Made by a program: the position numbers and the translations under genes. From Spirochaetales bacterium (GTDB lineage: Bacteria > Spirochaetota > Spirochaetia > Treponematales > Treponemataceae), in the NCBI GenBank assembly GCA_030540405.1, contig JAUNWH010000025.1, positions 1 through 38,238 of the forward strand: DNA of 38,238 nucleotides, written 5' to 3'. The notes under the pieces were generated by a model. The model was not told where the DNA came from. It did no database searches and saw only the letters and a program-made list of their open reading frames with translations. Within the stretch, counting starts at the first letter, position 1. The number at the start of each line of letters is the position of its first letter. Below, one piece after another: positions 12,383 through 17,383 of the stretch.

Positions 12383-12454
12383 CATAATTTCTTATTTTTA
12401 GACAAAAATTAGATTTTCGTAGAAGTTTTTTTCAATAAAGTGTTTTTTTTTTAC

Positions 12455-12601
12455 TAGCCCAAACTTCGAGTTTTGATAAGAACAGTAATTTAAGTGTCAT
12501 TCCCGTGCTACGACACGGGAATCTGTTGGAAATTTTCAATAGATTATCGGGTCAAGCCCGATAATGACATTAAATTATAAAACTCGAAATTAAGGTTACT
12601 A
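12455..12601. repeat. Dispersed palindromic repeat, copy A (147 bp)
   Basis: A terminal-inverted-repeat element. The left end is TAGCCCAAACTTCGAGTTTT. The right end, read inward on the minus strand, is TAGTAACCTTAATTTCGAG then TTTT. The core contains two hairpins: CATTCCCGTG with CACGGGAATC, and GATTATCGGG with CCCGATAATGAC. It has no coding capacity, which resembles a MITE or bacterial palindromic repeat. It matches copy B at 13569 in length, but with the core inverted. Confidence 0.85.
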
Positions 12602-12620
12602 AAAAAATAAATGCATTACA

Positions 12621-12686: not shown

Positions 12687-12998
12687 CTATTTCTTGCCAG
12701 CTATTCCAAATTCCTGCCATCCCGTCTGTGGAATAGTCAGCTTTACACGCTTTCTTGCATCCCTGATACGTAAATCCAGTCTTCTAGTTTCTTCGGCAAT
12801 GTCCAAAGTACAAGTTTTTAGATCAGACTTAAGTTTTTCCTGCTTGCTGTCAAGATTCTGAAGATTTGCAACAATGCTATCAAGTTCCAAAGCATTCTCT
12901 TCTCCTAAGCTTACACTTGCAAGCTCCTCTTTGTGAGCCTTAATGCCAGCCGACATCAGCCGTGCGTCGCTCATTTTCTGTGCAAACGTATTGCCCAT
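12687..12998 (-). CDS. Unrecognised 103-aa coiled-coil protein
   Basis: I do not recognise this protein. It is short, charged and predicted almost fully helical. Residues about 20-85 show heptad-like leucine spacing (ENALELDSIVANLQNLDSK, EKLKSDLKT), consistent with a coiled coil. A conserved-looking tail reads KLTIPQTGWQEFGIAGKK. There is no signal peptide, membrane segment or cysteine pair beyond one Cys. ATG 12998 has AGGAGA at 13005-13010. A 33-codon ORF with an excellent ribosome-binding site lies 53 nt upstream on the same strand, and a strong terminator follows, so the two form a small operon. The whole unit sits between inverted repeat copies A and B. Confidence 0.75.
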   Translation of the reverse strand: MGNTFAQKMSDARLMSAGIKAHKEELASVSLGEENALELDSIVANLQNLDSKQEKLKSDLKTCTLDIAEETRRLDLRIRDARKRVKLTIPQTGWQEFGIAGKK

Positions 12999-13010
12999 TG
13001 TTCTTCTCCT

Positions 13011-13055
13011 TTAAAAAATTAAGACAAAGACCTCTCTTTAGAATTAATTTTTTAA
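13011..13055 (-). repeat. Perfect 12-bp inverted repeat between the two small genes
   Basis: TTAAAAAATTAA (13011-13022) and TTAATTTTTTAA (13044-13055) are exact reverse complements. The pair spans the stop codon of the 33-aa ORF and abuts the ribosome-binding site of the 103-aa gene. In mRNA the hairpin could gate access to that site or couple the two genes. It is AT-only, hence weak. Confidence 0.55.
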
Positions 13056-13153
13056 GCCGCTCCGAAAAATATTTTACGAAGCATAAGTTGATAAATAGTT
13101 TGCAACGCAAACTTCAAAGTATAAAAATCAACAGAAGTTCTGCCAATTTCCAT
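13052..13153 (-). CDS. Candidate small protein of 33 aa
   Basis: The ORF runs from ATG 13153 to TAA at 13052. It begins MEIGRTSVDFYTLKFALQ and ends with MLRKIFFGAA. AAGGAGAG (13157-13164) lies 5 nt before the ATG when counted from AGGAG, one of the best ribosome-binding sites in the window; this is the main support. The peptide is amphipathic with a hydrophobic, aromatic second half and might contact membrane. I recognise no family. It could instead be a leader peptide controlling the 103-aa gene through the inverted repeat at 13011-13055. Confidence 0.5.
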   Translation of the reverse strand: MEIGRTSVDFYTLKFALQTIYQLMLRKIFFGAA

Positions 13154-13359
13154 TTACTCTCCTTTTTTAGATTTCAACCTAGAAACCAATAATAAAAAGG
13201 TAAAAAAACTTTTAGGAATTTTCAAGGAAAAATCAAAATTTATTTAAAAAAGCAGTTAAAAATTGCAAAATAAAAAAATCTGCAATAAAAAAGCCAATTG
13301 CAGCTCAAACTAAAGAATAATTATCTGAATTTTCAAAAGAATTAACTATTTTAAAAGCC
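13154..13359. other. A-rich non-coding stretch
   Basis: No convincing gene. Long A- and T-runs dominate. A weak 6-bp hairpin, ATTGCA (13262-13267) with TGCAAT (13281-13286), is followed on the minus strand by a T-run and might end a minus-strand transcript coming from the array. Only an isolated -10-like TATTAT (minus, 13194-13189) precedes the small operon. A possible additional degenerate array unit lies at about 13339-13359. Confidence 0.4.
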
Positions 13360-13570
13360 AAAACACTTTGACCTTTATTAAAAACACTTGTTCCCAGCTC
13401 AAACTCATCTGTTTTTTAAAGAAAAATACTTATTTTTAGTGTAGAACTAGATGTCTTTTCTATAAAAACACATGAATTTCCTCAAAAAACATCTATTTTT
13501 AGAGCCAAAACACATATATTTAGTCATAAACTAGATGTTTTTTATACAGATACAAGTATTTTTTCTAATA
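13360..13570. repeat. Degenerate array of ten ~21-bp units with alternating A- and T-tracts
   Basis: Units begin at 13360, 13381, 13401, 13422, 13445, 13464, 13485, 13507, 13528 and 13549, so the spacing is 19-23 nt with a mean of 21. The approximate consensus is AAAACACATSTATTTTTAG. Recurring cores are ACATCTATTTTTAG, CTAGATGT (twice) and ACACATRTAT. In the better-preserved units (13401 on) A-tracts and T-tracts alternate about every 10-11 bp, in phase with the helix, which predicts intrinsic curvature. No open frame spans the array. It lies upstream of the 33/103-aa operon and runs straight into repeat copy B. Adjacent units share only part of the consensus, so a plain tandem-repeat finder could miss it. 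Confidence 0.65.
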
Positions 13571-13715
13571 GCCCAAACTTCGAGTTTTATGATTTTATGT
13601 CATTATCGGGCTTGACCCGATAATCTATTGAGAATTTCCAACAGATTTCCGTGTCGTAGCACTGTAATGACACTTTAATTACTGTTCTTATCAAAACTCA
13701 AAATTAATGGGCATA
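13569..13715. repeat. Dispersed palindromic repeat, copy B (147 bp, core inverted)
   Basis: The left 20 bp are identical to copy A (TAGCCCAAACTTCGAGTTTT). From there on the core is the reverse complement of copy A's core, including the arm GATAAGAACAGTAATT, which here lies at the right. The switch occurs at the CGAGTTTT terminal inverted repeats. One hairpin has decayed (TTTCCGTG with CACTGTAATG). Confidence 0.85.
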
Positions 13716-13793: not shown

Positions 13794-15854
13794 CTATACT
13801 TTGAACAAATCGACTTCATCACCAAGTTTCTTTATAGAGTGAGCCATAAGATTAGAAATTCCAGACAAAGCATTTCCAGTTTCATTTATTTTTCTTGCGC
13901 CGGCAGACATTTCACTCATTCCTTGTTTCATGCTCAATGTAGAATCTTGCAAAGTTTTTATCTCATTTAGAATAGCCTTGCCGCCCTCTGACATCTGTTT
14001 GGACGATTCTCTTACCTGCACAGTACTGTCATTCATCTGTGTAAGAGCAAGGGAAATTTGACGAGATCCTTCTCCTTGTTCCTGCATAGCATTTTTTATT
14101 TGTGATACAAGATTATTTGTTTCCACCATTTCATTTGAAACAGCAGAAAAAGTTTCGGATGCAATTTTTGAGGCGGAAACAATCTCTTCAATTCCATCAG
14201 TTATTTTTTTCAGCTGGTCTCCAATTGTCTTTGACTGTTCAGATGAAGTTTCAGAAAGCTTGCGGATTTCGTCTGCAACAACGCTAAAACCTTTTCCAGC
14301 TTCACCTGCGTGGGCGGCTTCAATTGCTGCATTCATGGCAAGAAGATTTGTCTGTTCCGCAATGCTTGAAATAACGGCATTTGCTTCCTGCAAAGACTGA
14401 GACTCGCTTGCAATGACAAGAATTCTTGAATTCACATCATCCTGCTTCTGCACGCCTTCAGAAGACTTCTGCTCAAGGCTTTCAAAAGAAGAAGCCATTT
14501 TTCCAACAGAAGAATTTACAGAATTTATGTTGCCAATCATCTGCTCAACAGCAGCGGACGCTTCTGTAACACAGGCAGACTGGCTTTCAATCATATTATT
14601 AAGATTGTCAATTCCAATAGAAATTTTATCAAGAACATTTGTTGTCTGATCCACACTTTCGGAATTGCTGTTTATGCCACTTTCAACATTCTTGATATTT
14701 GAAATTATCTGGCTTATAGAAGTAGCTGTATCCTGTGTTCCAGCATCCAAATCAGAACCTACTTTTAGAAGCTCGTCCTTCAGCTGTTTTATAACAAGAA
14801 TTATGTTTTGCAGTTTTTCCATAAAGGTATTGAAACTGATTATAATTCCACCTATTTCGTCATTGCTCTTTTTCTTAAGTTCAATTCGCTTGGTCAAATC
14901 AGCATTTCCTGAAGCAATTTTATTTATAGACTGCTCAAGAACAATAAGAGGCTGCGTCTTTCGGACTAAATTGACAATTACTCCAGAAATTACAGCAATT
15001 CCAATAACAAAGTTTGAAATAACTATAATGGAAACAATTTTCCTAAAAATGCTAAGAACTTCCGACTCGGAAATAACTATGCAGTTGCGCCAGCCAGTTC
15101 CTTCGACAATGGAATAAAAAAGATAATATCTTCCGTTAGCAGTATTTATAATACCGTTTCCATTTACACTTGAACTAGAAAGAATTTTCTTTGCATCTTC
15201 TGTTGAAAAAAGCTTATCAACCTCTTTTGAATCCCCGGAAGAAGCTATCATAAGCCCATTTCCAGAAACAAGTACAGAAACTCCAGTATTTCCAAGTTCC
15301 GTATTTTCTACAAAACGGCTTAAACGTTCCGAAGTTGTTACTCCAGAGAAAAATCCAATTGTCTTCCCGTTGAGGTTAACAGCACGGTTTATATGAATAA
15401 CTAATTTTCCAGAAACTTTAGAAGGGCTAGGATTATCTACAAATGAATCAGCTCCACTCTGCATTATCGCTTTAAAATAATCACGGTCTGTTACAACTGT
15501 GTGAGTTCCCATATCAGATTTAAAGTTTCCATCTTGATCAACAAAAGCTACATAATCAAACCAAGACCTTCTTAAATATGAATGGCTCTGCAGCCAAGAA
15601 ACTATTTCAGCAGGATTTTCAGTTTTGCAAACATCGGCATTGACATACACATCCATTCCGATCTTAGATTTTTCAAGAACTGAAGATATTTCAGAAGAAT
15701 AAGACCTTGCAAGCTCTGAATACTTAGAATAGGCATCTTCCAGCAAGTCTTTCCTTGTTAAATTTACAATAACAACAAGCTGAACGGCAACTAAAAACAT
15801 TATAATAAGAGATGTCTGAATTCCGATTGAAACTGAAAGTTTTCCTTTTTTCAT
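13794..15854 (-). CDS. Methyl-accepting chemotaxis protein with Cache sensor
   Basis: A 686-aa transmembrane chemoreceptor that would control CheA through CheW. Order: TM1 (about 12-32), a periplasmic double-Cache-like domain (about 35-265, with [17 protein letters not shown] and [10 protein letters not shown]), TM2 (about 272-297), HAMP (about 298-350), and a long signalling coiled coil. The hairpin tip reads [20 protein letters not shown] then [16 protein letters not shown]. Double-Cache domains commonly bind amino acids or other small molecules, but the ligand cannot be read from sequence. ATG 15854 has AGGTG upstream. The gene is monocistronic between its own promoter and terminator. No che genes are nearby, as is common for spirochaete receptors. 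Confidence 0.93.
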
Positions 15855-16162: not shown

Positions 16163-17383
16163 ATGAAGAAATTAACACCTATAACACTCCTATGCGGTTA
16201 TCTTGGAGCAGGAAAAACAACTCTTCTAAACAAAGTTCTTTCGAATCAGGAAGGATATAAAGTCGCAGTTATTGTAAATGACATTGGCGAAGTGAATTTT
16301 GACGAAAAACTTATTGCTGACGGAGCAAAAATAACAGACACATCAAGCATAGTTCCTTTGACAAACGGCTGTATTTGCTGCACACTCAAAACTCAGCTTG
16401 CCCAGAACATAGAAAACCTCATAAAAAGCGGCAAATTTGACTATATTATGATTGAAGCAAGCGGCGTATGCGAGCCAATGCCTATTGTTCAGGAACTTGA
16501 AACAATAAAGAATGGCAAAGTTGACAATGTTGTAGGCGTTGTTGACGCAGCACGTCTTGTAGATGAATTTTCAGGTGGCGACAAGCTCTTGAAAAAGGAT
16601 TCTATTGAGGAAGAAGACGTAGAAAGCCTTCTTGTTCAGCAGATTGAGTTCTGTTCCACACTTGTAATTAACAAAAAGGACTTGGTTTCTGATGAAGAAT
16701 TCAAGAAAGTACGCAAAGTTATTGAAGTTCTTCACCCGGGCGTAAAAATAATTGAAACAAGCCATGGCGATGTAGACGTAAAAGAAATCATGGGAACAAA
16801 TTCCTTTGAATTTGACAGCGTTTATGCAAGCGCAGGCTGGTGCAAGCATCTTGAAGAAGACGAAATTGAGGATGAACATCACGAAGAGCACCACCACCAT
16901 GAAGAAGAGCATGATGAACACGAAGAACATCATCACCACGAACATGATGAGCACGACCATGAAGGACACGATCATCACCATCATCATGAGCACCGCCACG
17001 AAGGAGAAAGCGAAGACGAGTACGGAATAGGAACTTTCATCTATTATAGAAGAAAACCTTTTGACCGCCAGCTTTTAGACGAATATGCAAACACTTGGCC
17101 TCGCAATATTATTCGCTGCAAAGGTCTTATGTGGTTCGCAGATGAGCCAGAGATGGCTTGGGTATTTGAAACTTCAGGCAGACAGATTCAAGCAGGCTAT
17201 TCTGGACAGTGGGTTGCTGCCTGTTCACCTGCCGAGCAGAAAAAAATCCTTGAAGAAAACCCAAAGATAAAAGATGAATGGGATAAAGATGTAGGCGACA
17301 GAATGATTAAGCTATGTATAATAGGACAGAATCTGGACAAAGAAAAGATTTCTGCAGAACTTGATAAATGCCTTGCAAAATAA
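16163..17383 (+). CDS. COG0523 (CobW/ZNG1-type) metallochaperone GTPase with His-rich insert
   Basis: A 406-aa G3E-family GTPase. Proteins of this class insert or traffic metals, often zinc, using GTP. Seen: Walker A GYLGAGKTT (12-20), the metal-binding CxCC motif (C70, C72, C73), a Walker-B-like IEASG, NKKD (170-173) for guanine recognition, and a C-terminal CobW_C domain (about 287-406). Between the domains lies an insert with 23 His in about 41 residues (239-279), interspersed with Glu and Asp, a likely metal store. ATG 16163 has AGAGG at 16152-16156. An earlier in-frame ATG at 16109 lies inside the leader hairpin and is rejected. The metal is inferred to be zinc, cobalt or nickel; sequence alone cannot decide. 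Confidence 0.88.
   Translation: MKKLTPITLLCGYLGAGKTTLLNKVLSNQEGYKVAVIVNDIGEVNFDEKLIADGAKITDTSSIVPLTNGCICCTLKTQLAQNIENLIKSGKFDYIMIEASGVCEPMPIVQELETIKNGKVDNVVGVVDAARLVDEFSGGDKLLKKDSIEEEDVESLLVQQIEFCSTLVINKKDLVSDEEFKKVRKVIEVLHPGVKIIETSHGDVDVKEIMGTNSFEFDSVYASAGWCKHLEEDEIEDEHHEEHHHHEEEHDEHEEHHHHEHDEHDHEGHDHHHHHEHRHEGESEDEYGIGTFIYYRRKPFDRQLLDEYANTWPRNIIRCKGLMWFADEPEMAWVFETSGRQIQAGYSGQWVAACSPAEQKKILEENPKIKDEWDKDVGDRMIKLCIIGQNLDKEKISAELDKCLAK

Follow-up and report, generated by a model that had tools for sequence, protein, structure and literature searches.

The window, the whole stretch of 38,238 nucleotides analysed here (contig JAUNWH010000025.1 of Spirochaetales bacterium assembly GCA_030540405.1), contains a run of 21-bp units upstream of a gene for a 103-aa protein. 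What does an array do whose period is kept while its letters vary, and does it belong with the gene? The features of the locus are as follows.

12687..12998, minus strand: gene (ORF) for the 103-aa helical protein, a member of array-linked family 1
12999..13314, minus strand: spacer that separates array from gene and evolves more slowly than the array (Fisher p 0.03)
13052..13153, minus strand: possible 33-aa ORF between array and gene (from translation; GGAG in front)
13315..13356, minus strand: two decayed units in the same register (TAGTTA at +21, CAGATA at +42)
13357..13566, minus strand: ten-unit 21-bp array (21-bp core register, autocorrelation at lags 21 and 42)
13794..15854, minus strand: methyl-accepting chemotaxis protein gene (Pfam MCPsignal, dCache_1, HAMP), the upstream neighbour, outside the array-gene pair

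The array is composed of ten 21-bp units with the approximate minus-strand consensus AAAAAxCANNTGxTTTTT plus a linker. Read on the minus strand from 13566 to 13357, the cores are spaced exactly 21 bp apart, and the units follow one another directly, joined by linkers of about 5 bp. The uneven steps of 19–23 bp given in the preliminary description do not hold; they arose from where the units had been anchored. The core is YANNTR in nine units and AAAGTG in the tenth; all ten have A at +1 and T at +4. Two types of unit, A (CAGATG, TAGATG, or CATCTA) and B (CAAGTG, TATGTG, or TAAGTA), tend to alternate. The interleaving of A- and T-tracts noticed at the outset is borne out, with A at three or more of four tract positions in eight of the ten units and T at three or more of four in nine. 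Self-comparison of 13360–13580 gives matching fractions of 0.53 at lag 21 (z 7.5, against a shuffle mean of 0.31) and 0.547 at lag 42 (z 6.8). The latter is the observed maximum, and none of 1000 dinucleotide shuffles reaches it at any lag from 5 to 60, confirming both the place of the array and its excess 21-bp periodicity over shuffled sequence. Tandem Repeats Finder, run at score 30, misses the array, and therefore the earlier epithet 'cryptic' is fair.

Other repeats also lie in the window. A dispersed element of about 150 bp with CCCAAACTTCGAGTTTT ends has inverted copies at 12449–12610 and 13563–13710, flanking the gene-array segment, and short matches on other contigs of the window genome; the sister Treponema genome (G180) has no copy at the end of the array. 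A CobW-family gene contains an internal repeat of 15/39 bp with His- and Glu-rich codons (16808–17005).

The window genome (G000) contains a second array of the same type, on contig C47 at approximately 54348–54599, between a mannose-6-phosphate-isomerase-like gene and a probable outer-membrane protein gene (named by eye from the sequence). Both array loci are syntenic in G180, so a related genome does carry similar arrays, contrary to the second ground for refutation named in the preliminary description. In a profile search of 200 genomes of the genus, G180 is the only other genome with clear arrays of this type; a single match in G116 is not a 21-bp array. The search proposed earlier thus finds the sister genome and reaches few others, because each locus has unit sequences of its own.

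At the window locus, 880 bp align with G180 without an indel, and the decayed units have none either. Differences between the two genomes fall at 15 of 210 array positions (7.1%) and at 9 of 316 positions (2.8%) elsewhere in the spacer (Fisher p 0.03); the gene has 4 in 312, all of them leaving the protein unchanged. The possible 33-aa ORF is kept, with amino-acid changes. At the second locus, the cores are 21 bp apart except in the last unit, which is one base off in both genomes, and the array is longer in G180 by three 42-bp pairs (18 units, against 12 in the window genome). Over the four same-type arrays, the A/T pair of the core is kept in 47 of the 48 units counted, decayed and shifted end units being left out. 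Of the two bases at the core centre, one is A/T and the other G/C, again in 47 of 48 units, where a fraction of about 0.38 is expected from composition.

The 103-aa protein has no Pfam family at E 0.001 and no Pfam or NCBIfam match above cut-off. AlphaFold2 predicts an all-helical structure (pLDDT 93) with helices at residues 5–21, 23–29, 33–88, and 91–97. No DNA-binding domain is recognised in it by Pfam, and comparison of the fold yields no confident match. At E up to 1, it matches four Pfam families, none of them Nop, and no Nop appears among the 25 of 101 families listed for other family members. The protein scores 16.6 bits with the PQLLE family model (NF052641), against a curated cut-off of 80 bits, and 15 of 15 A4 members match the model weakly (best E 1.9e-9). 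Judging from these sequence matches, family 1 may be a distant relative of the PQLLE family.

Family 1 loci were fetched by protein search, blind to any array. The family is present in 9 of 196 genomes of the genus (13 loci) and in 11 of 392 genomes of the phylum; 15 matches fall in eight genomes already matched, and 17 loci lie in named genomes. Four loci are on viral contigs, five are plasmid-collection records (four of them Riemerella), and relatives occur on a Treponema plasmid record. The loci span different phyla, including Capnocytophaga catalasegens and a Caldithrix MAG. The C. catalasegens genome (G757) carries seven copies; at E 1e-15 it is itself the only one of 395 genomes of its class with the family, indicating that the distribution is sporadic. 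The window genome has a second copy at G000:C54:81-389 (L088), with a 20-bp array of the AAGAATATTNNATATTC type.

After removal of duplicate places, 39 family 1 loci were examined, 33 of which score above 100 bits. These 33 are partly dependent, with four near-duplicates (three pairs at 99–100% protein identity and one at 96%), and many loci come from MAGs, in which repeats may have been collapsed or wrongly assembled. Among lags of 12–33, the best upstream lag is 21 in 26 of the 33 loci and 20 in five. Of these 31 loci, 30 beat all 100 shuffles; the array of L153 (Riemerella) is weak, its value being reached by 3 of 100 shuffles. The co-occurrence of gene and array, which the preliminary description proposed to check, is seen in 31 of 33 loci. 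L139 and L144 have best lags other than 20 or 21, L144 reaching 0.74 at lag 42. The mean best self-match over the 33 upstream regions is 0.64 at lag 21, 0.46 at lag 20, and 0.37–0.41 at the other lags of 12–33. On the downstream side, compared without shuffles for the 32 family 1 genes with sequence there, self-match stays at or below 0.56 for all lags of 12–33; L143 alone has its best lag at 20 or 21, with 0.39. Six of the seven Capnocytophaga copies have lags of 20, 21, or 42, and five pass the shuffle test.

Across the 26 arrays of period 21, the median number of units is nine and the median distance from array end to gene about 125 bp; the window array ends 358 bp upstream of its gene. Apart from the family gene, no gene cluster occurs in more than six of 26 loci in an all-against-all comparison. 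Among the six weaker relatives (below 100 bits), L130 carries its array upstream, L129 and L131 carry 21-bp arrays downstream of the gene (0.89 and 0.99), and L128 (which has an in-frame stop), L132, and L151 have no array. L129 and L131 form a diverged subfamily with FGIKPWK near the C-terminus.

The pairing is not confined to one gene family. L093, an order-level profile match, lies just upstream of an unrelated 239-aa gene. The corresponding family 2 (L093, L179–L208) is multi-copy, with proteins of about 220–240 aa that are predicted to fold into a helical bundle and a fibronectin-III-like domain; in Pfam and NCBIfam, models match at most one or two of 26 members, and those weakly. It is present in 51 of 118 genomes of another treponeme family, a single genome holding as many as 15 matches when fragments are counted, and was not found in the window genome. 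Upstream of 28 of 30 family 2 genes, there is a lag-21 array above all 60 shuffles, narrowly so at L204 (0.54 versus 0.51). The exceptions are L203, with 182 bases of upstream sequence, and L206, with a 7/14-bp repeat. Downstream, none of 27 genes has an array at lags 20–22. Nine later matches (from two more genomes, several being fragments) show a lag-21 stretch in four cases when the whole locus is searched. Taking the two families together, 59 of 63 loci have a best lag of 20 or 21.

The unit sequences are unrelated between many of these loci; what persists is the period, the position, and often dyad symmetry. The units have TTTAGGA-N-TCCTAA arms in T. saccharophilum, read GAATG-N4-CATTC in the L104 group and GAGCAACGTTTGCTCGACATT in L091, and are nearly identical to one another in L115. 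Dyad symmetry is significant in 22 of 32 family 1 arrays (at most 3 of 300 column permutations reach the observed value) and in 10 of 28 family 2 arrays; no significant dyad is present in the other 10 and 18, respectively. Indirect evidence on sequence-specific binding by the linked protein is mixed: across 31 arrays, similarity between arrays correlates weakly with identity between the proteins (rho 0.26), and strong exceptions occur both ways. L086 and L087 encode proteins of 52% identity beside similar arrays (6-mer cosine 0.84), whereas L090 and L091 encode proteins of 92% identity beside arrays that share almost no 6-mers (cosine 0.01). The latter pair of sequences argues against simple sequence reading by the encoded protein, which may thus not read the array.

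Arrays of this kind are scarce elsewhere in the stretches sampled, some of which lie around known loci. In 211 kb of the window genome (including the window), no lag-21 array at or above 0.54 was seen beyond the two already known. In 180 kb of the Capnocytophaga genome, all lag-21 arrays at or above 0.60 lie beside a family 1 copy, and there is one array each at lags 15 and 19. In 93 kb of G180, chosen to hold the known loci, the two known arrays are the only lag-21 arrays at or above 0.60, together with a 22-bp orphan.

Orphan arrays were observed as well. That in G180 (L097, 4430–4560) is AAAAACANAGTGTTTT-like, and a 22-bp array of GGGTTGTAACCC lies away from the gene copies in the Capnocytophaga genome (L173, around 163). 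The second-locus arrays in the window genome and G180 lie away from a family 1 gene. G287 and G462 contain intergenic-looking 21-bp arrays (L092, L095, and L096), and no family 1 gene was found in either genome.

We tentatively read the recurring pair, a locus-private array of two-turn period and one small-protein gene, as a docking track for protein dimers on one face of the helix, with a probability of roughly 45%. The encoded protein or a partner would bind the array, and binding would be cooperative and symmetric, on dyad units. The feature recognised would be helical spacing, not base sequence, and the resulting protein assembly could control or mark the adjacent locus. The 103-aa protein is a candidate rider of such a track; in the predicted model, its helix 33–88 is about 84 Å long, compared with about 71 Å for 21 bp. 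A period of 20–21 bp independent of sequence fits two turns of B-DNA with all units on one face, and the frequent dyads fit symmetric dimers. The letters at the window locus drift between the sister genomes without indels, which fits selection on spacing; the earlier suggestion that spacing rather than exact sequence is selected thus seems right. Among the functions first offered, an architectural or regulator-binding array remains the best reading, and no observation points specifically to a source of small RNAs.

Alternatively, the array could be transcribed and act as an RNA that binds or restrains the small protein, as a type III antitoxin or a guide array does. We regard this as unlikely, even though it is the strongest of the alternatives. 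The layout is the same, with repeats upstream of one small gene, and the minus-strand fold of the window array is better than 200 shuffles (z −3.8). The plus-strand fold is only weakly better (z −1.9), however, and any tandem palindrome should show some excess of folding. A period of 21 or 20 whatever the sequence and phylum suits two DNA turns rather than an RNA. A consensus scan of the window locus finds no terminator between array and gene, the only terminator-like site being upstream of the array (13757–13724), and the protein model is all-helical.

Two known systems bear on the RNA alternative. The sporadic, sometimes multi-copy distribution and locus-private repeats seen here speak for that alternative, and TIGR arrays are likewise conserved within a locus and vary across loci (PMC12045711). 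TIGR-Tas loci also place tandem units beside one effector gene and match their repeats to a symmetric dimer with a coiled coil, to which the present pair can be likened (PMC12045711). They have 36-nt RNAs, variable spacers, and a Nop-domain protein, whereas the present arrays have period 21, units that can be nearly identical, and no Nop domain by sequence. Assignment to TIGR-Tas was rejected, as the window protein has no Nop-domain match and the L115 units have no differing spacers; their lag-21 match of 1.0 leaves no guide-like diversity. Type III toxin-antitoxin loci (ToxIN) likewise have tandem repeats directly upstream of one gene, but in them the ToxI repeat measures about 36 nt and includes a pseudoknot, the toxin is an endoribonuclease, and its gene is preceded by a terminator (PMC8860590). 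The present arrays, in contrast, have 21-bp units, no terminator found, and a protein modelled as helical. Membership was rejected on the absence of a ToxN-type endoribonuclease match in Pfam, the all-helical model, and the lack of a terminator before the gene. A CRISPR array also fits poorly, since there are no unique spacers and the window units are contiguous.

It is more doubtful that the arrays are neutral or selfish satellites, made and remade by tandem duplication beside a gene without a role. The faster divergence of the window array than of the rest of its spacer, the sister length difference in whole pairs, the wholesale differences between paralogues, and the orphan arrays would all be expected of satellites. 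However, slippage should give many unit lengths, yet lags of 20 or 21 dominate both families; the arrays of full members lie upstream, not downstream, and the background is low away from the loci. Poly-A/T tracts should also gain indels, and there are none between the sisters at the window locus.

We likewise consider it improbable that the array is a centromere- or iteron-like site, on which a complex for partition or replication would be built by the small coiled-coil protein or by a host factor. Single-gene partition loci, such as those of StbA and pSK1 Par, have helically spaced repeats upstream of a small gene, a layout that the present loci resemble. Like iterons and centromere arrays (parC, stbDR, and tubC), the present arrays have one-face repeats upstream of a small gene and presumably cooperative binding. 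The relatives on the Treponema plasmid record and on viral contigs also point this way. In plasmid iterons and centromere arrays, however, the sequence is read by a cognate DNA-binding protein, whereas here near-identical paralogues face unrelated array sequences. Seven copies in one genome (G757) and a window protein without a recognised DNA-binding domain also argue against such a site. The label 'iteron-like' is an analogy only.

That phased A-tracts bend the region and tune a promoter is quite improbable. In a wedge-angle model, the predicted curvature of the window array is 166 degrees per 105 bp versus 71 ± 20 in shuffles, none of 60 reaching it, and its end-to-end/contour ratio is 0.13 versus 0.87. 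The intrinsic curvature foreseen in the preliminary description is strong in all four same-type arrays (0 of 60 shuffles) and does not extend to the family, as only 4 of 23 other arrays beat all 60 shuffles. A-tract bending is therefore unlikely as a general function; moreover, 358 bp lie between the end of the window array and its gene.

PARCEL elements share with these arrays tandem palindromic DNA and a punctate distribution suggesting horizontal transfer, but are 75-nt protein-coding repeats (PMC2996958), as opposed to non-coding 21-bp units. A PARCEL or coding heptad assignment was rejected because none of the four same-type arrays, the window array among them, is free of stops in any of its six frames. 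A profile match at L094 4659–5290 is due to coding heptad repeats (NQKTDIL) in a coiled-coil ORF, which imitate the array profile. Open frames are slightly above column-permuted expectation (mean 1.65 versus 1.37 in 26 family 1 arrays; 2.75 versus 2.38 in 28 family 2 arrays), with at least one in 19 of 26 and 27 of 28 arrays, respectively. A heptad-coding function (21 bp as seven codons) is nevertheless hardly credible, because of those stops and of five arrays whose period of 20 cannot keep frame, and chance open frames are expected in repeats of 21.

No description of such arrays was found in open-access literature. A broader proposal, for which we would offer somewhat less than even odds, is that they are a new class of bacterial element, in which helical geometry (two turns per unit) and not sequence is conserved and the repeats are private and replaceable as a whole, attached to at least two unrelated small-gene families and serving as assembly tracks or private addresses. 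Comparative genomics seeks conserved letters, whereas here spacing is conserved and letters are free; sequence searches therefore miss the class, and both BLAST and a sequence profile reached few of its members. The arrays also offer a way into two gene families for which no model in Pfam or NCBIfam matches above cut-off. If they are protein tracks, helical phase alone as a recognition code in bacteria would become testable.
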